From Ceratodon purpureus (lineage: Eukaryota > Streptophyta > Bryopsida > Pseudoditrichales > Ditrichaceae), in NCBI GenBank assembly GCA_014871385.1, contig CM026430.1:3575040-3639039 (forward strand): DNA of 64,000 nt, given 5' to 3'. How positions within the stretch are numbered: the stretch's first letter is position 1; each line of letters begins with the position of its first letter. Shown piece by piece: positions 2,251 through 45,417 of the stretch. Position numbers and translations under genes: made by a program. Under the pieces are notes generated by a model. That model ran no database searches and had not been told where the DNA came from. It saw only the letters and a list, made by a program, of their open reading frames with translations.

Positions 2251-3400
2251 CATCGATTGTTATGTGATTGTCAACTTGTGGACTTGTAAATCGTCTTCTC
2301 CGAATTCAACTTGCAGTATGTCGGTAAGGACCAAGTTGCATCTTCCAGTTGCTGAAGGTAGTCTAGGTTGTATCATCCTGAAGTTGCATCTTCCAGTGGC
2401 TGAAGGTGGTCTAGGTTGTATCATCTTTTGGGTGCTGTATGATCATCAGGTTTTCCATCAAAGAGGAGGAGTTTAAGAGCAGCCTGAATCGATCAAGAGA
2501 CTGAAGTGGGTTGAGGTATAGAGTACTCCGGCGTTGTGATCTAGATACCACTTGCTAGTACCATTAATGTCGACTTTGCTCCGAGATGGAGTTCGTGATT
2601 CGAAGGTAAACAGTTGGTGACCAGCGGCTTGTTTCTAGAATTTTGTCTGCTTGGACGAGGTGTTTGGATGGTGGTGTGGGAAGGATAGGGAGATAAGAGG
2701 AAGCTCAAGAGGAGAGACAGCGGAAAGGCACGTCGACGAGTGAGGTGATGTGATTTTGGACTGGAGGAGGATGTGGTAGAGATAGCTATCAATCATTTTC
2801 TATGAATGATTCATTTTTCGGAAAGTGGAAAAAAGTTTTCTAGATATGGAGGTAGAAAGTGGAAAAAGGAGCAGCAGCGCTTTCGAAGTGGAGGAATGAG
2901 AAATAATGTTTATCTAGTTGCAGAGGATAATATGTCTGTCTGACTGTCGGAGGATTCGTAGTCACAGAAGTGGAATGCTGTTTCGTGCTGCAGCGGGTCG
3001 AAGTAAGGTACAGTTTTTGTAGGGTCAACTTGTCAGCTGAAACTGTTTTTCGTTTTCTGATGGTGCGTGGATGCTTCCGGATGTATTGTTTTTTTAATAC
3101 TTCGGTGAACTGAGAGTCCTGCAAATGGTATTTCGTGTAGTATCCTGGTGAAGTAGATGTTTCTCGCCGAGGCAACAGAATGTGTGACCGGAGTCCGTAA
3201 ACATACCGCAACGCATTGGAGATGCATTCGTAACGGATGGACCAGGTTTTCCGGTAGTGTTTTCGCCGTGGCTCACCTGCTCATTAAAATAATGATTTAT
3301 TTTTCTGTGGAACAGGTCAATCCAGCAGCACGAAGCACGGCACCGCAGTCGCATGCTAAGTACTCCGGAGTATATAATTCATCGCTTACCAAGAGCGCGC
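2250..3400 (+). promoter_or_regulatory. Predicted promoter/leader of phosphatase gene, marked by a skew switch
   Basis: The plus strand changes from C/A-rich (about 1700-2200) to G-rich (about 2480-3350) before the ATG at 3401. I infer the transcription start to be near the switch and the G-rich stretch to be leader or a 5' intron. No clear TATA box was found. Confidence 0.35.
2333..2428 (+). repeat. Tandem duplication, 2 x 48 bp
   Basis: Two copies, 2333-2380 and 2381-2428, both begin AAGTTGCATCTTCCAGT and differ at only a few positions. They lie close to the C/A to G/T composition switch upstream of the phosphatase gene. Confidence 0.85.
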
Positions 3401-6400
3401 ATGGAGAACAACACCATGGCTGGGCTTAACAGTACTAACTCGGAGACCAGTTCTCACATTTCAATGTATACTTTACTGGTACCTTGGCAGCTTGTCATCG
3501 TTGGTGCGATCATTATCTCGGTGCTTATTGCTATGATCACGGCCCCTGCTAAGCATTTCCGGGCATTAGTGCAACCATTTGTGCTTCGACATGTAGAGAG
3601 CGGAGTGCCGGTGATCCTTGCAATTCAGGTAATATCCATGTCTGAAGCAGCTGAGCTCCAGCAAATTCTTGTTGAAGGAGGTCATCTTACCTTGGTTTGA
3701 GCTCCATAAAAAGCTGATTTTGTCATGGAACACCATGAATGCGTGCAATTGGGTCATCTAGTTGCAAGGACTCTCGTTACTGAAGTGAAATTTACTTAAG
3801 TTCATTTAGATTGTTGTAGGTATATTTTTTGAGGAATGGTTTCTCAAGTGCTGACATCAGTTCCACCTTTGTCTGCTGTAGAAATATAGGCATCCATGGC
3901 TCGATTCCTTCTTCGGTGTCATTGCGACTGTGGTATCTGTGCCCTTCTATTCCTTGGTGCTGCCTTTGTTCTTTTGGGTACGTTTCGCAGTACTAACCTC
4001 AAAAGTTCCATGTTTTCCGTTTGTTGTAATATACGGATGTTGTTGAAGTGGCCCCTTCACCATGAGAATGTACAGTCCTGTTATCATTACTCAGGTCACA
4101 AGATTATGGCTGTCATGCTGGCCTGGTAGGTTTTAGGAAACTATTTTTCTCACCATTATCATCCCTTCAAGCATGAGGAGGTGATAACCCTTGTGTATAA
4201 TGGTGTTTCTGCAGCATGGACAACCAAAACTCGGAAGGCAACTGACACTGTTAATTGCAACATGCGTCTATGTGGGAAACTCTGCAAAGGTAAATTACTT
4301 AGCAAAGCAGCTATCCATTGAAAGGATCATTAAATTTCAAATTGCAGAATCTGAGTTAGTGTGTGTTCTATCGTTAATAGGCAGTAGTCCCTATTTGTGC
4401 AAGGAATTCTCATTGGCCTTGAGAGAGAACATTCCAAAGAGAGTCTCCAGTGGGTTGATACCTGAAAACATTTATCAATTTGAACAGGAACCGGTGGCCA
4501 AACTTTAATTTTCTGAAATTGCCCGTGAAATTGTCTGCTGGTATTTTTATGCGAGGCTAAGCGTGAAGCTCACAATTACAGACAGGATGTTTCTTTCAGA
4601 TCTCTTGAGAAGGTCAAAATTCTTAACTTGTAGTCTGTGTGCAGGACTTGGTCTGTGCACAAAGACCACCACCGCCTGTATGCAGAGTAGTTTCATCAGA
4701 ATCTGAGGCAAAAGGCTCGGAAGAGTATGGGCTACCTTCTTCTCATTCTATCAACACAATATGCTTTGCAGGGTAAGAAAGAAACAAGTTGTGTGTATTG
4801 CTCCACTGCATGTGCAAATTGGTGAAGCATTGCTTATATCTTAATCAAAAGTGTAAATTAATCTTAAATGTGATATAAGGATTCTAGATGTTCTGTGATT
4901 TTTTTTCCCCTTCGGTACTTGCAACAGTCGAATGCAGGTGTAGTAGCCTCGTTCTCTCAAATTGAGACTAAATTGGTGACAGTGGGTGTGTCAGGTATGT
5001 GCTATATTATCTTACGGGCCAGCAAATTGAGCTCAGCACTCTTCTGATCACCACAGCCCTCCTTACTACACTTGTAACCTTGGTCATTTTCGGTAAAGTC
5101 ACTACCATAAACACATTTCATGAGCCTGCGGTCAGACTCAGAATCAATTTAGGATGTACACACATGTGCTGGTAGCATAAATATGATACTTCAAATCTGA
5201 TTGACATATCGTTAACTATCTTTGATACAGGAAGATTATACTTAGGGATGCATTCCCCAATAGACATAGCAGCTGGATGTGCAATCGGAGCGACCTTACT
5301 TCTTGTTTGGTGCAATATTAACGAATATTTGGATGGCTTCGTCACTGGTGGCAAAAACGGTAGGTCACAAGCACAAGAGTAGCTGATTTATGAAAAAATT
5401 CTCTTTAAAGCGTCCATGCTATGCATCAGGTTCCAATTGTTGTACGTACTTCCCTGATTATTAAACGATAAGGCTTTGTGTTTGTCCTAAATGTTATGTC
5501 CAGTTGAAGTGTAGTTTTGAATACCAATTACTGCCAAAATAAAATGCAGACAGCCTTGGAGAGATGACATATTTGAGATTGTTTTTGCTGCAGTTGTTAT
5601 ATTCTGGACAACTATAGCCATCCTTGGTTTACACGCGTATCCAACTCCAGAGTCGCCAACGCCCTCTTTTGAAGATCACACGGCTTTCAGCGGAGTTGCT
5701 CTGGGCGTGGTTAGTTTACCTATCATCTCGCATATATCATACATTTTTTGACAGGGTTTGCTCTGCTTCTCTTCTGCTGATCAGATCCAAAAAATTCCTG
5801 TTTTGACATTTTTGGACACTAGTTGACAAGATATGGTTGCATCTCCTAAACCTGTCTTTTGCTTTTTGTCTAGTAAGACATCTTCCACATTTTATACTCT
5901 TGACTGGTTTGATAGGGCACATGGGTCTCCACAAGTAAGAATATGTAATATCTCTAAATGCATTTCTTTGAAAATACTATGGAATTGGTTTTAACATTAT
6001 AAGAGGATGTCACTCGTACCAAAATACTGAATCTTGTCCTTATCATGCAGGTGAGTGGAGTGCATCGAACATTTATGCTTTTTCATTCCGGAGTTCTATC
6101 ACCAGCGTCGCTCACTCTTGCACATATTGGTATGAAGACGGCACTTGGTATGGCTACAGCTTTTACTGCCAAAGAAGGGAGCAAGTATCTTGCAAAACTT
6201 TCTCTTCCGTTGATCTGTTATGTACCAGAGTTGCTACTGGGATTCCGTTTCCATTCGTCTTCCTACGTAAAATCTATGAAGAAAGAGATTCAGGATGATT
6301 TGGAAGCTCCAAAGTTATGTGGTGTTCTCGAGCCGTGTTATAGAATTCATGGTTCCGTCGATGTTGACACTGGGATTAGATTTGTTCAATATGCTGCATT

Positions 6401-6455
6401 AGGATGGGCAGTTGTAGAGTTAGCCCCACGAATCTTTTTTCTCTTGGGTTTGTAA
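3401..6455 (+). CDS. Sphingoid long-chain-base/lipid phosphate phosphatase (PAP2 family)
   Basis: Eight exons join in frame: 3401-3628, 3882-3977, 4215-4289, 4645-4772, 4995-5092, 5231-5359, 5594-5709 and 6051-6455, giving 424 residues. That is close to the plant sphingosine-1-phosphate phosphatase length as I recall it (about 415). The three PAP2 catalytic motifs are present: KDLVCAQRP (about 133-141), PSSH (about 164-167) and GRLYLGMHSPID (about 209-220). Several hydrophobic segments and a conserved end (VDTGIRFVQYAALGW) fit an ER membrane enzyme removing phosphate from sphingoid-base 1-phosphates. The start at 3401 is chosen because the frame runs straight into the family's N-terminus; an ATG at 3416 is an alternative. 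All introns are GT..AG. A polyadenylation-like AATAAA lies near 6625. Substrate is inferred from the family. Confidence 0.93.
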
Positions 6456-7564
6456 CTCCACACGGACGTTCCAAAATCTGATACAGTTCTTACAGCATAC
6501 AAGGTTTAAATTCCGTTGAGCTGAGCAAATGTGAATTTCTGTCTTGTAAAATGCCTTGTAAAATGTTTTGTAAAATGTGTAAAATTTCTGTAGTGAATCT
6601 CACTATACTACACAGAAAGATAGCAATAAATTTGACAGCGCGAAGGCTTGAAACAGTTTCAACTCAATCAAAACTGTCATGTCAAAGGAAATGCTTGCGA
6701 ATCTGACCTCGGTGCCTCAAGTTAACACCACCACGCTCCTTACAAAACCTTACAATTAATGCCTCAATGAATCCGGTGATTTCTATTTTGTAAAGACAGC
6801 AGACAAAATTCTGACATTTGTTGCAGGCAGTATTTGAAACCTTTCAAAAGACAACCAGCTTGCAAACGACGGAAGTTCGATCGGTGCTGAACAAAATACA
6901 CCAACAGTCCAAGCAATCTCTACACCATCAGCATCATTTTGAGTGTCATTTATACCTCAATTCTTACCGCGAGCATGAAATCCTTTTGAAGAGTCGACTC
7001 ACTCTTCAATTGGTAGAACGATATTGATTTCCTCTCACTTCACTACTGCACATATTCAAATGCATGTTGTATCATACTCAATGGGAATATGAGATGGCCG
7101 AGGCCGGAAACAGTCTCATCTAAATTTTGGAGAATGAGAGAAATTGAAGTCGGCGCTTGGTGCCGTGATCTCCTTTCGCAAGCTGCCTAGACGAGATACG
7201 TACGAATTAAGGAAATCAAAGTATTCAAGCATATGCAGGCTTTACTCTGATATTCACTGAAACAAAATGTCTTTTCCAAAGCAAAAGGCGCATCGTGTTA
7301 TATATGTGCATCAGGTTGTGGATGCAAATACATAACACGATCGTCAGCACCAAGACATTGCACGATGATCAAGTTGGGCATGTACAGAAGCAATGGAAAC
7401 CATAATTTCTAATCAACTGATGAGAGGCTGTCTAGGTTTTAGGATTTATGTTCTACAGGAAAAAATTGTTTCATAAGATTGGTATATTAATGAGACATGG
7501 CTCGGGCCGTAGATTTGCAGGAATTATGTGTACCATGGCCAAAAGAGCAACTACCTGAAGCTAG
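6456..7564. other. 3' flank between convergent genes
   Basis: This is the shared downstream region of the plus-strand phosphatase and the minus-strand F-box gene. It holds AATAAA-like sequence near 6625 and no convincing coding segment; the 69-residue frame at 6818-7027 has no splice or family support. Confidence 0.5.
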
Positions 7565-9876
7565 TTAGACTGGAGCATCCAGCCGGGGACTAAAAGGGAA
7601 GCCAATAGTTGATCTATAATCCTCGATGTCGGTGAGCAAGGGGCAGCTAGGCACCCAGCGCCATGACCGTTTCGAGAAGTCATAGATCAAGGCGTGCGGG
7701 CACTTGTAACTAGTGAGGCAAATGAGATCGTTATGGCCAACACACATGAAGTCGCCGTTCCTTGAATCCTTCAGGAACCGCTTACAAAGAGTGTGTGGCA
7801 TACGAACAACTTCAACCCAATTCATTGTACTTTGTTCAAGTTCCCATATCCTGATGTTCTTCGGAATGGCGTGTTTCTTCAATCCGCCCACCATGAGGAG
7901 ACGCCGTTGGCATCCCACAAGGTGAGGCGAGGTGAGGAAGGAGGGCATGGGAGCCCTCACCACACTCCACACTCCATGTTGCATATTAAAAGCTATGACC
8001 CCGTATGGATCCCGAGTGACCCAGAAATGGAAGCCATTGCAAAAGGCATTACGGAGCGTGTAATTTGCAATTGGCAGATGGTTTCCAGTTATACGCCAGG
8101 TGTTAGATGTGGAGTCATAGACTTCCGTCCTGACATTATCTTCATAGTAGTCACCAGCGACCACAATCTTGTAGGCTCGTGTCATTGGATCGACCACCAT
8201 GCCTACGAGATTTGGGAACCGCTTGTGTAACATGGGAGGCAATTCCCTCCATCTAATGACAAAAGACTCCTAGGTTAAGGCTCATATCAAATTTATGTAG
8301 ACATGACCAACACAGACTTCAGATCCGAAGTCTCTTCATGGGAAAATATGCAAGAAAGACTTGCCCATGTATATGAAATGTTTAATAATGCACACATGCT
8401 TCCTGCCACAACTACCAGCTCTACATTCTGGTCGGTGCAGGATAACCATTCTAAAGTACGGCTAACCAAAAACCTCTGCCCATCGCTATGTACCCATATA
8501 ATGTAGTGCACATAAACCATCACGGATCACCACTGCGGGAAGCTAACAGATATTGTATCTTACAATGTTACAGGCTTTCCTCATCTCAGGGAAGTTATAT
8601 CACATCAACAGAAACTACCGTCTAATGGAACATCGCCGACCAAGCCGAGTGTACATAAAGAGACAGAAGCGTGTCCCCCATAATACCTCCAGGCTCTCGA
8701 AGAACAATTGTTCTTCAAGAGCCTGAGCTTCTTGTCTGATCAGCTGTCATGCAACTTTCATACAACACCAAGCAAAATAGTAGCAACAATATAACAATGT
8801 CTACAATCACGCAGAGACCAGAGCGAAACAGAAAGCATTATGAATACATGAGGACGTTGAAAGCAGGGTTTATGATTTAGGGTTTAGGGGTGATACCTGC
8901 GGGTCAAGGGATTGCAGACCGACAAGCTGGGGTAGGCACTCACACCACAAAAACAGAGCAAACCTCCAGCTGCAGCGCATGGGAACTTGGTCTCATAGTG
9001 GAAAAATGTGAAAGGAATCCGGTGCCAGCGATTAGACGACGGGTTGTAGACAGAGCACATGCTACGATCCTTGGCCTCAAACATTAAGAAACATGGTTCC
9101 GGTGATGGGACTCGACGGTACATCTCCAGGAAGCTGTGAGAGTACATTACAGAGTTCCACCTGAAAGAATCACACATCACAAATCCAAGCCAGTTGGTTA
9201 GAGCGGTTTCCCATTCTCAGCTGCATCGGATAACATACCCTTCCAAGACCGTAACCAAGTGTCACATATCAATTTTGAACTACACGCAGCAGAATTCAAG
9301 AACATGTGACCTAATCAGGAATCTATTGCTTGTGAAGGATTGGAAGAAGATTTGGAGATTCTGCATCCTGCTTCCATGAAGAGTGAAAGTGCTTCAAACA
9401 TTCATAAGCGCACTTTTATGTCTGAGCCATCAGTAACACGAAGGAATTTAAGAACTGCAATCAAATTTGATGAGATGAAAATTAGCAACAAACCTAAGAA
9501 AAATTGCCACCCTAAAAACCTATAATTTTAAAAAAGCGTACCGCTTGCAAACTGTACAAGCTCGAGCAAACGCAGGGAACGGCAGCCACGCCAGGATCCG
9601 GTCCTGCAGGTCTTCAGGGAGCGACCCCCACAACTCCCCATCCAGCTGCGCCGTATCACCCTGGTCAGCATCCATCTGCATGGTCCCTGCCGCCGCGGCG
9701 CCATCCTCATCCCCCCTCCCATCATCTGAAACCGCCGCTGCCTGTGAATCCCCAATCGAGGCCCGCCCATGACTGCTCCCCTCCAAATACAATCCTTGCG
9801 ACGTACTACTCATGGCGCTACTCCGCAACTGCTGTACATACTTCCATATTCCTAACCTCTTCCGTTTCGTCGCCAC
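7565..9876 (-). CDS. F-box/kelch-repeat protein
   Basis: Three exons on the minus strand: 9876-9542, 9160-8897 and 8252-7565, total 428 residues with phases that agree (CG|G and AG|A junctions). The F-box lies at about residues 82-112 (WGSLPEDLQDRILAWLP, then VCKRWNS across the first junction). Downstream are kelch/galactose-oxidase-like motifs: VYNPSSNRWHRIP, VCNPLTRRWRELPPM, VYDSTSNTWRITG and a later MVGG segment. Such proteins are substrate receptors of SCF E3 ubiquitin ligases, the F-box binding SKP1 and the kelch part binding the target, which is unknown here. An acidic, Ala/Asp-rich linker precedes the F-box. The ATG at 9876 is the first of several; MSSTSQG further in is a possible alternative. 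Confidence 0.92.
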
Positions 9877-13003: not shown

Positions 13004-15969
13004 TTAATCCCTAAAGTACTTTGAGACCACATTGTGGTCATAGCATTTATGGGCGGCATGCTATTTTAAGCTCCTAGATTTTGAAATTTTCTAATATTTT
13101 TACTACACATATAGCTTTGATCATTGGCTTTTTAATGGCACAATTTTTGAAGCATATGAAGTAAGAATGCAAAAGTTATAAATTTTATAAGAACTTTTTT
13201 TGGTAGAGCAGCCATTTTCCAATTTCAATCTCCCATTTCCTACTTAAATTGCCCATCACTCAGAAGGGCAAAAAGTAACAAGACTAAATTTCAAAGGGTA
13301 GGTACTTGCAACACAATGTACCCAATAATTTTTCATCCATCACTAGTAGAAACCACACACAACTATACCAAAGTTTACACCAAAAAGGGATCTAAATTGG
13401 GCTTTTGAAAATGGTGTCCTCAAAGTTTTGTTTGGTGTAATTCAGCACTTGACATTGCTATTTCCGTGCAAGGAATTGAACTCGCGTGGCCCACGCTGCT
13501 TTAATCAAGCAGTAAATATGACGATTCGGTAATTTATTTCTCCAGCAATAAATCTGGCTATTTAGTAATTCATTTGTTCCGATAAAATTTTGGATGTTGA
13601 ATGGATGAATAGCATCCACTGGAAGGGAAATCATGGGAGGGTGAGATTTAGAGCATACTTAATTTGGTCCTTTACATTATCTAGATCACACTCTGTTGAG
13701 CTTCTAGATCTGCGTGTGTATGTATGAGAATGACTTAGCGTCTAAATACCCAGGGACTGAGGTTTGCAATGCAATGCATATGGGGACTTGTGAAAATTTC
13801 ATACTAGTAGTCTATATTACCAAGGTTGTAAGACTGGTTTTAACCTTTCCACATTTTTGTTGGAAGGCGGGTCCTCTGACATGCCCTAGAAAAGTAAACA
13901 CACACCATTGGTCGCGGAATGTGAGGTAACTTAGGCATATACAAAACTGAAATGGCACCCACAAGCTGCAAGAACGCACTACAAACACCAAAAAATCCTA
14001 CTGACCAATCAGCATCCTGTGTTTATAATAGATGGACACCATTGTGATTTTTGGGTGTTCTCTCATGGTGTAGTTGTATGATGTTTGCACTAGTGCATAC
14101 ACATTCTTGACATTTTTCATCTAGTGGATATTTTCATCTAATTATAGATTTCTATAGAGGGGTTGTTTTCATCTTCATCTAACTAACGAATACCATCTAT
14201 AGGTCCATTTTCATCCAATACATATTTTCATCCACAAAAACAATCCAATTGTCAATTTTCATCCAGCATTAATATACATCATTATAATTTTGTGATGTGG
14301 CAATAAATCTATCTACAAGACACATTATTCTTGAGATGCCCTTTTGAAATTATAAAAAATCATGTTGTTTGTACTTCAATAATTAGGAGAAATATTAATT
14401 TTACTCCAATTCCATTGAAATTTTTTAAAGTTCTTTTTCTTATTAACAATAACATAACTAATTTTTAGCACACCCTCAATGATTAAAACAAGGATTTTTT
14501 GCCCTTATTAAGAATGTATGAGCTCAAAGTTGGTGAGCATAAAGTTATGTGTTGAAAACATACTTCATACCTATAAGAATTGATGATCCTTTATCAATCA
14601 AATGTATTTGTAAAGTATACTTTTTTAGGCAATGCTAAAAATAAAATTATAGTATCTCGAAACCTTATGAGTTTCCAATTTGAATGTTGAATCATGCTAC
14701 GATTTGATATATACCTTTTAATACAAGGTAGGCTCAGAATCCTATACCTACAAATTTTATAAATTGTCTAATTGTAAAAATCAATAGGTTGCTACTGATA
14801 AGGGTCTGTTTTTGGGAGTTTTAACTCCAAAAACACCAAGAAATTTGAGGGGCTAAACCATTGTCTATGATTGGAATGTAGATTTTATTAGTGTCGCTAA
14901 AATAATTTTTATTATCTACTAGTATTACAAAATAAATATTGTATGCATTAAATGTAATAAAATATAAAAAACACCAAAGTTACTTTGTCCTATCAATAAA
15001 AAAACTAAATGTCCAAAAAAGAGCATAACTATTAAAGTTATTTTTTCTATCAATGAAAATTCCAAATGTCTAAAAGTGAGTATAATTTTTTGAAATACTA
15101 GTTTATGCAGTGACCTATCAACCATCACAAATCATTGGTGCTTGTAGGATAATGCAAATTCATTTCTATAAGTCATTATAAAACAATACAATAAAAAATA
15201 ACTTGACCATCTATTTTATCAAGGTGTTTTTGCATTGACAAAGTAGTATTATATTCCAAATAATTTATATTTGTTAGTCAAGAAAACTATAGCAATAATC
15301 AAATTGTACTTTTGTATTTTTGTTTAAATTAAAATTTCTTAATAAATTACAATATCATAATGTAATTTTGTTTTATTGGCCAAATTCAATTTGCCCGAGT
15401 CACTAGAGAAATCTGCACATCACAAATGCAAATTTGGTGTTTCTGTATCAATACTACAAAAACGGTATACATTATGTTGCAAGCCATAAACATCATGAGC
15501 AGCCCATACATTGACTGAATTCAATGGACATGACAGCATCATGGCTGTGACAAGCACTTCCACCTTGCAATGCCTTGTAGAGTACATTTCATGCTTGTTT
15601 TGGAGTCCGGACAGCCCCGAGGCATTTACATATGATAGTACCAGATTCGTCCATAAATAGTTCTAAAAATAGACACATAAAAAATTTACTGAGGCAAAAA
15701 AAAAAGAAAAAAAAAAAGAATTTTTTGTTACATTTTTTATTTCTGAGTTATTTAAGATCCCCTTTACTAATGTTTGCTAACCAGTGGGCATTGGTTCATT
15801 AACCATACGAACATACACTGTATTCACGCCGGCCCTTTTTGGATCCGGAGTTTTTATCTATCTATCTTTGCTAACCAAAAAAATTCAAGAAATTCTGTTT
15901 TTGAGAGGCAAACCTTATTTTATTTTATTTTATTTTAAATAAATATAGGTCCGAAATGACCCTAAACTA

Positions 15970-16115
15970 ATCAAGTGGGAGCATGGTGGTACCCAAAGCG
16001 AAACGCAGTGGTTGGCGGTTCAATTCCCGGAAGTGAAACCGCTCCCATGCTCGATGGGAAAATTTGCCGTGAGGGGGCAAACCCCCTCTTGTGTGTCAAA
16101 TAAAACTAAAAAATA
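15970..16115 (+). mobile_element. Possible tRNA-derived SINE fragment
   Basis: GGTTCAATTCCCGG at about 16017-16030 fits a polymerase III B box. CGCAGTGGTTGG just before it resembles an A box, but the spacing is far too short; GCATGGTGGTACC further upstream could be the A box instead. GAGCATGG and CCATGCTC flank the core as an 8-bp stem, and an A/T-rich tail follows. Weak call; it is nested inside the larger element. Confidence 0.3.
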
Positions 16116-16749
16116 AGGAAATAAAAATTCATTTACGAGGTGGCAAACTTGCTATATGGTGTTACGGTACCGCTTTTGCATTGCAATTGACTAGAGTTTG
16201 TCAACACCTCAGCAGTTTAGCAACAACAAAATGCCACTCCAAAGTACAGGATGGTCAGAAAGTGAATGTAATCTCACATAATACAGAGATTGACAGCTGT
16301 TGTAGATGAAATTGAAATCTTACAGCCAGGTTTGTCCATGGTGTAGTACATACCTAAAATACACAACATAGAATTGAATTGTGATCTTAAACATATATCT
16401 TAAATTTCTTTTCAATTGAAATTCAAATCCTTAATTGACCTACTTAGGTTTAGAGACAGTTTTTGTTACTAAGAGGACATAAAATTCTTTATAGGAAAAA
16501 TAAGAATTTTCTTTTTTAATTGTGAGCAAAAGGGAACACAAGTTTTGAATTTTTGTTTATCGAGATGTTGAAATATGTAGTTTTTGGTCCAAAGTTATTA
16601 GGTTTATAAATTTTTATGTTTGATATATTCAAAATCTTCAAATATATTTTATCTCTAAAGTTTCTTGTTGTTTTTGGAGCCAAAAATGTCATAAACAAGT
16701 TCTTACTAATTGCAACCTACTGTTTTCTAAAATAAAACATAATGCAATA

Positions 16750-16980
16750 TTAACGGTAGGATTTTGTACCTCCCTTATCCAAAAGGTGTATATAAAAGCT
16801 AAGTACAATCCACCATGCAAATTGAGAGATTATAAGTTTTGAAGTTACTGTAAAAGTTTTTTTGGCATTGCTCCAACATTTTACATTACTTTTGATGGCC
16901 AAAAAGTATACTTTGCAAACACATTTGATGTATGGACAATCATCAATTCTTGTAGATGTGCAAGTAAGGTGTACGCTCAC
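16750..16980 (-). pseudogene. Transposase remnant, possibly piggyBac-type DDE
   Basis: On the minus strand the frame contains IDDCPYIKCVCKVYFLAIK, and later WIVLSFYIHLLDKGG. A diverged parallel occurs in the related copy near 36360-36450 (KIDDFPWMKCLCKVYFLGI). The conserved IDD..K..CKVYF pattern in two copies, with different flanking decay, argues that it was once protein. It resembles the IDE..(F)KGR..Y.P.KP region of piggyBac transposases followed by the Y(T/L)GKG strand. The match is weak and no complete frame survives. Confidence 0.35.
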
Positions 16981-17808
16981 AAAGCTTTAGCCCCATATGT
17001 GCGTGGGAAGGGGAAAAAACCTTTGATTTTGTGGAAACAGGTGCATTGAAAATGCCTTACATTCTCCAAGTTTTAAATTACCAAAAAGGTAATCTAAACA
17101 TTTTCAATTGGAAATCCAAACAACACATATGCCCATGTCAATGAGAGAGAGAGAACTAGAAAAAAAATCAATACAATATGAGTGAAACTCAAATTTCTGA
17201 ATTTTTCTGTGAAGTGTAAATAGTATAAATTCCTTTAATTTTGAATGGTAGTTTTGATAATACTCTACTACGTCATATATACTAGATGAGGTATGTTAAG
17301 ACCAGATGAAAAATGAAGATTGGATCTAATATGTTCTATAGATGGAAAAAATATTTTTTGATGCAAACTGAGTTATGGATGATAATTTTCATTTAAATGA
17401 AAAAAGTCAAGATTGAAGACAACTCTTCTAAATGGAAATGGTTGGTTAGATGAAAATTGTCATCAATGTATATGGATGAAAAAGTATTTGGCCCATTATT
17501 TTGCAAGTGCCTATCTTTTGAAATTTAATCTTATCACTTTCTACCCTAGTGAATGACCATGAATCTAGGAAAAAAAATGGGAGATTTTGATTGGATACAT
17601 GCTATCCAAATTTATAGCAGCTTCTTCTAAAATCCATAACTTTTGCATCATAACTCCAAATGATTTGAAAATTGTGCCATTGGAAAGCTATCGTTGAAAA
17701 CTATGTTTAATAAACGTTTCCAAAAATACTTAAATTCAAGGACCTTAGAATAGCATGCCTAGAAGTGCTATGACCTATAATGTGGTCTCAACGAACTTTA
17801 GAGGTTAG

Positions 17809-35379: not shown

Positions 35380-36932
35380 TTAACCCTTAAACGCTGGGCC
35401 TATGGCCATGGATTCAGAATGGTCATAGGGTGTTTTGTTTTCTTTATTTTTTACTCAAATTGAGAATTTGAGTGATATTATTTTGGAAATATTTTTCCTA
35501 AATGAAACCTTACATTTTCTATGTACAGTGATTTTTTCCGTTAAAAATAAATAAAAATGAAACTACTATGTTTATTTAAAGGAAATCCTTAAGAAATTTA
35601 ATATAGATTAGAAAATATATTCAAAAATTTGAATTTGTTTTCCATAGGTTTGGCTTACATAAGAGTACATAATGGTGAATGAAAATCATCCACAGCTCTA
35701 AAATTTTTATAAGGTACCTTCATGATAATAAGTGATGAACTTGCAATTTGTATAAAATACTTAATTTTAGCAAATTTAAAACATCTTTCTTATTTTTATC
35801 AATTGAGTATAGTATATAAAGACATATGACTTGTTGAAATTATATTATCATAAATATTTAATTAAATTGAACATAACAAATTGAAAGATTATAAAATTTA
35901 ATGGATTTTTTTTCTATCTCTTTAAAACAAAATCAACAAATTTTGATTTCTTTGGTGTCAATTATTTATGTTACAAAAGATCTAAATATTTTATTAGTAA
36001 GGTGTACATGATGTTACTTTCTTCTACACCAAATTTTAAAGGTAGCATAAGGGCATACATTATGAAGAAAATCTTACAAGTAACATGGATTAATATTATC
36101 CTTGGTTCCTGTAGAATATTATCCTTTAAAGTTTCTTGGTTTTTTGAGAGCCATAACTGCCAAAAATAAACCCTTATCAATAGCAACCTAATGATTTCTA
36201 AAATTAGACATCGCATAGAATTTGTAACACTAAGTTCTTGTATCTACCTTGTATAAAAAGGTGTATACAAAATTGGATCATGATTTATTAAACAAATTGG
36301 AAGATTATAAGGATAGAAATCACTATTAAGTTTTTCCTTTATGTTGTCCGGTAGTGTACCTAAATTATGATGCCCAAAAAGTATACTTTGCAAAGACATT
36401 TCATCCATGGAAAGTCATCAATTTTTGTTGGTATAGAAGTTAGCTTTACACTCACCAAGTTTGAACCCGATACATACTTGGAAAGAAAAAATTCTTTGTT
36501 TTGGGATCATTTGAGATGTGCTGAAATTCCATTACATTCTCCAAATTCAAAACATCCAAAAGAATAATCCAAGCATGTCAAACTAAATAATTTCAAGAAA
36601 ATTGGAGTAAAACTTGAATTGAAGCAATTTTTTGAAGCACAAATGATATGATTATAAAATTAAAAATTAAAAATTCTAATATTATAAAGTATAAATTACA
36701 AATTTTGAAATTTTGAAAAAGCAGCTTTGTAGTAGTGGGTCTTGTGGATAAACTCTCTACCACGTCATAAAAAATGGATGATATATTATTGCCTGATGAA
36801 AACTAAAGGCTAAATATAAACGTCCATATGGATGAAAACTGAAAATGGCCCTTCATCTGGTAGTTGCATACTGGATAGCCTATTCACATATGCTACAACC
36901 ACAATGTGGTCTCAAAGATCTTTAGGGATTAA
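35380..36932. mobile_element. Second, shorter relative of the TTAA element (1.55 kb)
   Basis: The right end (CTCAAAGATCTTTAGGGATTAA, ending 36932) matches the ends of the 13.0-17.8 kb element. The interior (about 36100-36550) aligns with 16620-17050, including AAAGTTTCTTG, CAAAAAGTATACTTTGCAAA and TTACATTCTCCAA. The left boundary is proposed at TTAACCCTTAAACGC (35380), which is similar but not identical to the inverted right end. The right end is well supported and the left is tentative. Confidence 0.55.
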
Positions 36933-44476: not shown

Positions 44477-45417
44477 TTTAACCCCTAAAGGTTCAAGCCG
44501 TTTTTGGACCTCCAAAACCAAAAACTGTGATTTTTGACGACCTTGTAGAAGTCGAAGTATGATTCTTAATTTTTTTATTTTTTTGATACATCCAACCGTA
44601 AGATCTTAAACCTAACTACCTGCACTAATACCATGTTAAATTTCAACGGTTGGATCTTTACCATTTGTGAGATTATAACGTTCAAAGTTTATTGTTTTTT
44701 TTTTTTTTTGGCTTTGCGGAAAAGGCATACTCTAAATGGTGCCAAGGGAGACTTGATTATTGTTACCTCAAACATTTTGCTCATATTTTTTTCCATGTAG
44801 GTAACTAAGTTAAGCACCTTCAATCAAAATTTTAGAGTCTCATTACAGTTTTTTGGCCTTCATGCAAATTAATTTCCACAAGAAGGTGCAAAAACCACAA
44901 TATGGTAAAACCTAAATGACGTGAAATACTTTTGGTTTTTTAAAAAAGTGAACGGTTAAAAGTTATGTCCATGATTTTTTGAATTATTGGAAAAAAAAAA
45001 TTTGAAAAATTCCTAGATCTCAAATTTTGACAAATTTTGAAAGAAAAAATTGTAAAATTACCAAAATCTGAGAAGGTTGTTTCTGTGATTTTTGGAGGCT
45101 GCCCTTCTAAAACTGGTAAGCTTTTTGACATAGGCCACTTTGGATTTTGAGTACTGAATTGGTTATGAACACATTTCCAAAAAAAAATTCTAAAAAAACC
45201 TAATTTTAAACTGCCCGTTTTGGACTTGAAACCTAAAATTCCTAGATGAAGGTTCTAAAAGTAAAATTTGGCGTCGAAATTTTTACCACATACACTTTGC
45301 TGTATGACGAGCATCCAGTAAAATTCTTAGGCAAAAATATTACTTTTAACCCCTTCATCTAGGCTGCCCGAAACAACCGAGAGCCATTTTGGATTTCCAG
45401 AACCTTTAGGGGTTAAA
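44477..45417. mobile_element. Non-autonomous TTAA-flanked DNA transposon, copy A
   Basis: Perfect 18-bp terminal inverted repeats, TTTAACCCCTAAAGGTTC at 44477-44494 and its reverse complement at 45400-45417, with TTAA at each border (44478-44481, 45413-45416). It aligns end to end, in the same direction, with copy B at 48031-48970. Shared interior landmarks are GTGATTTTTGACBACCTTGT, ACATCCARCCGTA, GGCTGCCCTTCTAAAA and CTGCCCGTTTTGGACTTG. No coding capacity. Confidence 0.85.

Follow-up and report, generated by a model that had tools for sequence, protein, structure and literature searches.

Probable non-autonomous piggyBac relics with TTAA borders in Ceratodon purpureus, a moss whose genome carries many full piggyBac elements

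The segment at positions 13004-17808 of the window (the whole 64,000-nucleotide stretch of Ceratodon purpureus DNA analysed here) very probably contains two non-autonomous, TTAA-bordered piggyBac relics, in a genome that carries many full piggyBac elements. Counting a third copy at 36119-36932 and two copies of a second family, the window would hold at least five. The evidence consists of the ends and copies themselves, a TTAA empty site at a nested relative, and transposase genes that lie within TTAACCCCTAA-ended elements. Since the genome encodes PF13843 elements, family C shares its terminal sequence with one of them and a TTAA empty site was recovered, we interpret these sequences as piggyBac elements of a plant, together with their miniatures.

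Anatomy of the 4.8-kb segment

The features of the window are as follows.

13004-14856, plus strand: A1, a non-autonomous copy of family A, with TTAATCCCTAAAG as outer end and CTAA as inner end (TTAGCCCC on the minus strand); split by a CACTA-type insertion
13341-14095, plus strand: CACTA-type miniature of 755 bp nested in A1; ends CACTAGT...ACTAGTG, with 3-bp CAT direct repeats outside
14857-16647, no strand: spacer of 1.8 kb between A1 and A2, outside the termini of both copies
16648-17808, minus strand: A2, a family A copy of 1161 bp, with TTTA at 16648 and TTAG at 17808
about 36119-36932, minus strand: a third copy of family A with an internal deletion, about 814 bp long and bordered by TTAT and TTAA (inner edge set at 36121 in computations)
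44478-45416, plus strand: non-autonomous family C element of 939 bp, in which perfect inverted ends of 13 bp, CCCCTAAAGGTTC, follow TTAA
48033-48969, plus strand: another family C copy, of 937 bp and with 77% identity to the one above; TTAA at both ends

A preliminary description of this DNA had reported a 4.8-kb element bounded by oppositely oriented ends, with a TTAA left border at 13004 and a related copy ending in TTAA at 36932. The border observation is confirmed, as TTAATCCCTAAAG is found without mismatch at 13004, and this 13-mer recurs without mismatch on the minus strand at 36932. The inverted end regions are also real, with 13005-13340 and 17472-17807 aligning over 345 columns at 72% identity (E about 4e-44), and the border at 17808 reads TTAG rather than TTAA. 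The single element did not survive alignment of ten A copies, in which each arm proved to be one member of a ~1.18-kb family and to have its own second end. This inner end (of the ...GTTTTTGGAGCC type) lies at 14856 on the minus strand for A1 and at 16648 on the plus strand for A2, and we read the TTTA and TTAG ends of A2 as probably degraded TTAA. The segment is therefore two old, gene-less family A copies facing each other and not one transposon.

It is very improbable that the segment moved as a unit, as one large foldback or long-inverted-repeat transposon. The arms are indeed inverted over more than 300 bp and there are inner inverted matches too, but the arms are ~1.2-kb copies with their own second TTAA-type end, like five single copies elsewhere, and A copies also occur side by side in the same orientation. 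The one other pair of similar size that we examined, of 4.9 kb (C1:1594845-1599722), likewise consists of two separate A copies in the same orientation; it had been considered as a longer A copy and was rejected as a tandem pair with no transposase match inside. Under the two-copy reading, the apparent 4.8-kb element arises because two family A copies inserted near each other in opposite orientation; they would have landed about 1.8 kb apart, with the CACTA-type insertion entering one of them later. The inserted stretch, whose ends we take to be those of a CACTA element from the hallmark of that group, is a gap in the nine other A copies in the alignment blocks listed. By eye, the spacer contains a tRNA-like or SINE-like stretch near 15960-16110.

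The minus-strand stretch IDD..K..CKVYF, followed by FYIHLLDKGG, had been proposed as a conserved piggyBac-like remnant, which the translated sequence does not bear out. Neither this stretch nor its third-copy counterpart matched Pfam at E values up to 10 in the four frames searched. Its length differs among the ten aligned A copies, in part by numbers of bases not divisible by three, and its frame is interrupted by at least two stops in seven of the ten (one stop in A2 and in L012, none in L025). In addition, nine transposase frames of the genome, searched by tblastn at E 1e-3, matched nothing in the window.

Family A across the genome

When the genome was searched with the 397 bases from 13004 onward, 40 matches were scored (the best 40 of 714 candidates, the query itself among them); 30 of these, again counting the query, begin where the query does, on the T that opens TTAA. 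Single A copies of 1,163-1,192 bp are found at L017 (two), L026, L014 and L025, and three further left ends pair with right ends at about 1,151-1,187 bp (on C4, C2 and C15). The A copies show 66-85% identity, so the family is old. TTAA stands at both ends in six of 11 A copies (the two at L017, L026, L011, L014 and L025); the remainder read TTAA/CTAA (A1), TTTA/TTAG (A2), TTAT/TTAA (the copy at 36.9 kb), TTAA/TTTA (L028) and AATA/ATAA (L012). Among the 13 complete copies counted for the TTAACCC-ended elements as a whole, 11 have TTAA at both ends, or 11 of 16 when L012, A1 and the 36.9-kb copy are added; these ends were located by scanning for TTAACCCC-like sequence, a procedure that favours TTAA.

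Beyond the TTAA, comparison of the outer flanks of these 13 copies gave agreement at 27 of 104 positions for k=8 and at 31 of 117 for k=9 (~26%), which we estimate to be about the expectation from base composition. This bears on whether the elements could be MULE or hAT transposons with an 8-9-bp duplication. Long terminal similarity does recall MULEs, but given this flank agreement and the precise TTAA empty site of a relative described below, that reading is contradicted and has a very small probability. With no 8-9-bp duplication outside TTAA and with a TTAA empty site, the outcomes that the preliminary description had named as speaking against piggyBac (such a duplication, or a MULE or hAT transposase) are therefore absent; the transposases of the elements with TTAACCCCTAA ends carry PF13843.

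An autonomous parent sharing the long subterminal sequence of family A was not found, either with A-end queries of the genome or by blastn against autonomous sequences. The A queries gave no match near any listed PF13843 match in the genome, as compared by eye. Six A copies had no blastn match to nine autonomous sequences at E 1e-3, nor did A copies match the complete element L037 at E 1e-2; against L042 there was one 22-bp match (E 0.001). The short termini are shared: the 14-base sequence TTAACCCCTAAAGG exactly ends A copies in L014 and L017 as well as the L042 element. It occurs at 2,843 exact sites genome-wide, with two for the reversed control, and 15 of 100 sites listed open a plus/minus pair spanning 924-939 bp.

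Kolobok, Sola3 and mariner-type superfamilies also have TTAA (or TA) targets. Family A, and only family A, might thus belong to another TTAA-inserting superfamily (Kolobok, Sola3) or to a TA-inserting mariner group preferring TTAA, resembling piggyBac in its terminus only. The missing parent and the lack of blastn matches to the autonomous elements compared are in keeping with this, as is a pogo/Tc5-type transposase fragment (DDE_1 plus HTH_Tnp_Tc5) present in L023. Set against it are the exact 14-mer common to A copies and the PF13843-bearing L042, and a right-end motif, GTTTTTGGAGC..CAAAAAC, that by eye is common to family A and L037; we consider this alternative unlikely. The shared short termini, the TTAA borders and the right-end motif instead suggest that family A belongs to the piggyBac superfamily. 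The superfamily assignment of the preliminary description thus holds for the elements of the genome, with their PF13843 domain, D-D-D triad, Cys-rich motif and TTAA empty site, and probably extends to family A through its termini and borders.

Autonomous elements, family C and the empty site

A DDE_Tnp_1_7 profile search of the genome returned at least 116 PF13843 matches (all 116 scored, from 998 candidates, were above the cut-off), the window itself showing no transposase sequence. The matched stretch is stop-free in 93 of the 116, and the longest open frame reaches 1,207 codons. Both element ends were located in two cases. The element at L037 (523-6644) is complete at 6,122 bp, with a 923-codon open frame (PF13843 E 2.1e-76) and ends that share 17 of their first 19 bases, including all of the first 12, TTAACCCCTAAA. 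Its protein matches piggyBat (9c0f, E 3.8e-27) and piggyBac (6x67, E 4.6e-25), the only two distinct PDB sequences matching it at E values up to 0.001. A second complete element, on C2 (L040, L032 and L041 combined), measures 5,802 bp, has TTAACCCCTAA(t/a)CGGCCAT ends and contains a 993-codon open frame. Further PF13843 frames lie in L035 (E 2.3e-81), L029 (4.7e-85), L042 (6.1e-77) and L021 (4.5e-73).

L038, the sister of L037 on another contig, is 99.2% identical to it over 3,164 bp and 82-94% identical over the remaining three main blocks; the similarity starts exactly at TTAA and the flanks differ. The three catalytic aspartates are present in all nine aligned transposase frames and the C-terminal Cys motif in eight of nine (L030 is frame-shifted there, and the final His is not in the L029 frame). 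The transposases of the two complete elements have both features, for which an alignment to piggyBat was also drawn on. dN/dS was 0.41, 0.26, 0.42 and 0.04 in the four pairs tested, the last with saturated dS.

Family C connects the miniatures to these elements. Its ends are a clean TTAA-CCCCTAAAGG, and bases 1-230 of the first copy align at 72% identity (E 3.5e-28) with the terminal 230 bp of L037, and no alignment resulted for a reversed-sequence control; bases 778-872 of the second copy match the other side of L037 (E 1.5e-7). By these alignments, the family C termini are homologous to those of the autonomous piggyBac element L037 523-6644.

The check for TTAA empty sites that had been proposed yielded a precise one, at L020 2450-2811 as compared with L021. 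When this nested 362-bp element is removed and one TTAA kept, the sequence aligns without gaps over 123 bp to family C copies whose site is unoccupied; the site reads TTAA in L021 and TTAG in the window copy. For two more unoccupied family C-like copies (L020 and L041), the alignment spans the empty site with 90 columns, but the site itself is not TTAA. Taken alone, a TTAA empty site looks the same for a TTAA duplication and for a TA duplication in TTAA context. Over its first 83 bp, the nested element matches the end of L042, an element with a PF13843 frame, at 87% identity (E 1e-23), and sequence comparison shows the nested element to be homologous to autonomous ends. The screen covered 92 candidate end pairs in the retrieved sequence, and seven alignments crossed a junction: three at L020 2450-2811, which were used, three at L027:492-7330 and one at L011:2012-2342, dropped because its displayed matches were poly-T. 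Searches with joined flanks found no empty site at L037, where both rows were the L037 flanks themselves, or at the L021 family C copy. For the latter, 39 of the 40 rows listed (one being itself) cover the right side only and 29 of these 39 begin on the T that opens TTAA; the right neighbour of this copy is the end of another TTAA family.

These observations suggest a mechanism in which a transposase encoded elsewhere in the genome, with its DDE_Tnp_1_7 core, three aspartates and C-terminal Cys-rich domain, would recognise CCCCTAAAG-type inverted ends, excise the element and insert it into TTAA, leaving one TTAA on each side. Miniatures with ends and no gene would be moved in trans. We infer from the sequences that the piggyBac transposases of this genome may be active and may mobilise the family A and C miniatures in this way.

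Significance and comparison with known systems

The piggyBac group appears to be abundant and recently active in the Ceratodon purpureus genome. There is an even chance that this moss holds several concurrently young, apparently functional piggyBac lineages together with thousands of miniatures, in which case piggyBac would be a major DNA transposon in a land plant, possibly one that is active to this day. If so, this would contrast with papers that give small counts, MITEs or a bare mention of plant piggyBac. At least 93 stop-free transposase matches, a 99%-identical 3.2-kb pair and abundant miniatures would allow a direct test of plant piggyBac activity and origin, and this large TTAA element class is worth including in the repeat annotation of moss genomes.

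Knowledge of piggyBac comes mostly from animals. The plant record consulted is thin, with small counts in one fern and one grass genome and general statements of presence in plants. For angiosperms, the portion of PMC10004981 consulted reports piggyBac-type MITEs. No paper on piggyBac elements in mosses was among the matches listed from the open-licence PMC literature; one moss paper (PMC10619864) was discarded, since 'piggybac' there is the word piggybacking.

The CACTA miniature at 13341-14095, with its own ends and 3-bp direct repeat, is unrelated to the TTAA elements and merely interrupts A1. As in the angiosperm MITEs, going by the same portion of that source, gene-less elements are here assigned to PiggyBac; in contrast to them, homologous termini link family C with autonomous elements within one genome, where the terminus recurs thousands of times. 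With the piggyBac superfamily as known from piggyBac (6x67/6x68) and piggyBat (9c0f), the moss elements share PF13843, three aspartates, a C-terminal Cys-rich domain, the TTAA target and CCC-type inverted ends. They differ in their moss host, in long open frames with N-terminal parts that by eye are of low complexity, and in the 5.8 and 6.1 kb of their complete elements. The Ceratodon purpureus elements are thus an added member of a known superfamily, notable for their scale and intactness.

Two neighbouring insertions at 13004-17808

The preliminary description presented 13004-17808 as one 4.8-kb candidate piggyBac-superfamily element bounded by oppositely oriented arms. The arms were recovered by alignment within the window, and the TTAA-type borders at 13004 and 36932 are both exact matches to the border sequence, which with up to two mismatches occurs seven times in the window against 2.25 expected (seven was reached by 2 of 100 shuffles). 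The single element did not hold. In an alignment of A1, A2, a third copy at ~36119-36932 (minus strand) and seven copies from other loci, all ten form one family of ~1.18 kb, family A, and A1 and A2 each possess their own second end; the segment is therefore two neighbouring family A insertions.

Features of the window
13004-14856, family A copy A1, opposite in direction to A2
13341-14095, 755-bp CACTA-type miniature element nested in A1, with CAT 3-bp repeats on either side
16648-17808, family A copy A2, opposite in direction to A1
44478-45416, family C copy 1, 939 bp, inverted ends adjoining TTAA
48033-48969, family C copy 2, 937 bp, inverted ends adjoining TTAA

A comparable family A pair on contig C1 likewise consists of two copies, locus L017 carries two in the same orientation, and left-end and right-end matches pair at 1,185 bp (contig C4), 1,187 bp (C2) and ~1,151 bp (C15). 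Compared in pairs, the ten copies are 66-85% identical, so family A is old. Within the alignment blocks displayed, the nested 755 bp are a gap in the nine other copies; the insertion opens CACTAGTAGAAACC and closes ...TTTGCACTAGTG, ends which, with the flanking CAT repeats, are the signature of a CACTA element. By eye, the spacer between A1 and A2 includes a tRNA-like stretch at 15960-16110 that contains GGTTCAATTCCC, which resembles a B box; the stretch may be a SINE, and ARAGORN did not call a tRNA in it.

A transposase remnant had also been proposed within family A, and this reading found no support. Pfam matched none of the four minus-strand frames scanned at E up to 10, and across the ten copies the length differences of the stretch are not all divisible by three. 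Seven of the ten have at least two stops in the remnant frame, A2 and the L012 copy one each, and the L025 copy none. Nine transposase frames of this genome gave no tblastn match (1e-3) in the window; among loci other than those chosen as transposase loci, the same search gave a single match, in L021.

Borders and target site

A 397-base left-end query from 13004 was run against the genome (362,488,568 bases; window at C10:3575040-3639039) and gave 40 scored matches including itself, the other 39 being 73-77% identical. In 30 of the 40 (tallied by hand) the match opens on the first T of TTAA, and many of the alignments run only as far as query base 337, which corresponds to window 13340, immediately ahead of the nested insertion at 13341. 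A right-end query taken from L017 behaved likewise: 36 of its 40 scored matches (self included, tallied by hand) begin at its first base. When 25 ends were set side by side, 20 opened with TTAA and the flanks appeared by eye to be unrelated. Assembled by eye, the left end is TTAAYCCCTAAAGGCCTTTGAGACCACATTGTGG; the right end, in the inward direction, is TTAACCCCTAAAGGCCCTTGGTGTTTTTGGAGCC. Next to the third copy, at 35380, stands another TTAA-type end, TTAACCCTTAAACGC, for which no partner was identified.

TTAA stands at both ends of 11 of 13 complete copies, or of 11 of 16 when the L012 copy, A1 and the third copy, which do not have it at both ends, are added; the count leans towards TTAA because ends were sought by a TTAACCCC-like pattern. 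Outside TTAA, the flanks agree at 7/39 (3 bp), 22/65 (5 bp), 27/104 (8 bp) and 31/117 (9 bp) positions. The proposed search for TTAA empty sites gave one clean case, a 362-bp element (L020 2450-2811) that lies within a family C copy; the first 83 bp of the element match the end of L042 at 87% identity. With the element's flanks joined around one TTAA, an ungapped 123-bp alignment is obtained to two sites that lack the insertion, reading TTAA in L021 and TTAG in the window. Two other copies, in L020 and L041, can be aligned across the empty site over 90 columns, and neither has TTAA at that point. A TTAA empty site alone is compatible with TA duplication in a TTAA context; the transposases decide between the two.

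Transposases and the elements that carry them

A genome search with PF13843, the piggyBac transposase domain, gave at least 116 scored matches drawn from 998 first-look candidates, all above the cut-off (best E 5.3e-84), and none in 14 control genomes of unspecified kind. Pfam scans of single frames agree with this search, and 93 of the 116 matched stretches contain no stop (tallied by hand). Against the PDB, at E up to 0.001, the L037 protein matches piggyBat (9c0f) and piggyBac (6x67) only. The DE, DN and VD aspartates are kept in all nine aligned frames and the C-x2-C...C-x2-C...C...C motif in eight, L030 being frame-shifted there; a catalytic triad and Cys-rich domain are given as typical of piggyBac-related transposases in PMC8086355. 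Four frame pairs gave dN/dS of 0.41, 0.26, 0.42 (a pair including the frame-shifted L030 tail) and 0.04 (saturated dS).

Elements joining ends to a transposase frame
L037 523-6644, autonomous-type element, 6,122 bp, TTAACCCCTAAA on both sides, 923-codon open frame
Contig C2, second element, 5,802 bp, bounded by TTAACCCCTAATCGGCCAT and by inverted TTAACCCCTAAACGGCCAT, 993-codon open frame

The ends of the L037 element share 17 of their first 19 bases. A copy on a different contig, L038, matches this element at 99.2% identity along 3,164 bp and at 82-94% across the remaining main blocks, and the similarity starts exactly at TTAA at the one L038 end covered. L042 joins a TTAACCCCTAAAGG end to an 822-codon PF13843 frame; no second end was found within the stretch examined. 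Upstream of the L037 transposase frame, on the same strand, lie frames of 147 and 159 codons (4582-5022 and 5698-6174), which have no Pfam match at E 0.01 and could represent either 5' exons or accessory sequence.

Family C, the second non-autonomous family of the window, is homologous to the L037 termini (72% over 232 columns, E 3.5e-28; the other side matches too), and reversed control sequences gave no match. The exact 14-mer TTAACCCCTAAAGG has 1,399 forward and 1,444 reverse sites genome-wide; its reversed control has 0 and 2. Of the 100 sites listed, 21 have an opposite partner following them within 8 kb. Fifteen of these pairs span 924-939 bp, which is family C's size; the outward arrangement was seen three times. 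A family C copy in L021 (89% identity) directly abuts, at 3097, a TTAA that also ends another TTAA family, and a 1,009-codon PF13843 frame lies downstream (5610-8636).

Elements of other kinds were also seen. A pogo/Tc5-like transposase fragment at L023 4846-5670, with DDE_1 and HTH_Tnp_Tc5 matches, shows that the genome also contains DNA transposons of other superfamilies. An uninterrupted 1,452-codon frame at L011 3883-8238, with endonuclease, RVT_1 and zf-RVT matches, is by its domains a non-LTR retrotransposon.

Assignment of family A and the known record

No autonomous parent of family A was found, and blastn of its copies against autonomous elements of this genome gave no match in two comparisons and one 22-bp match to L042. 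The family probably belongs to piggyBac, as judged from the shared 14-base terminus, TTAA at both borders in six of the 11 copies examined, and a short right-end motif common, by eye, to family A and L037. That it belongs to another superfamily using TTAA or TA seems improbable.

In the literature consulted, PMC8086355 and PMC10813416 mention PiggyBac for plants generally, PMC10004981 reports it as MITEs of angiosperms, PMC4438587 places it with the superfamilies present in all groups studied, and PMC6890710 and PMC8319324 give small counts for a fern and a grass. No paper on piggyBac in mosses was among the open-licence papers listed. The superfamily itself is already known; what appears notable here is how many copies a land plant carries and how intact they are.
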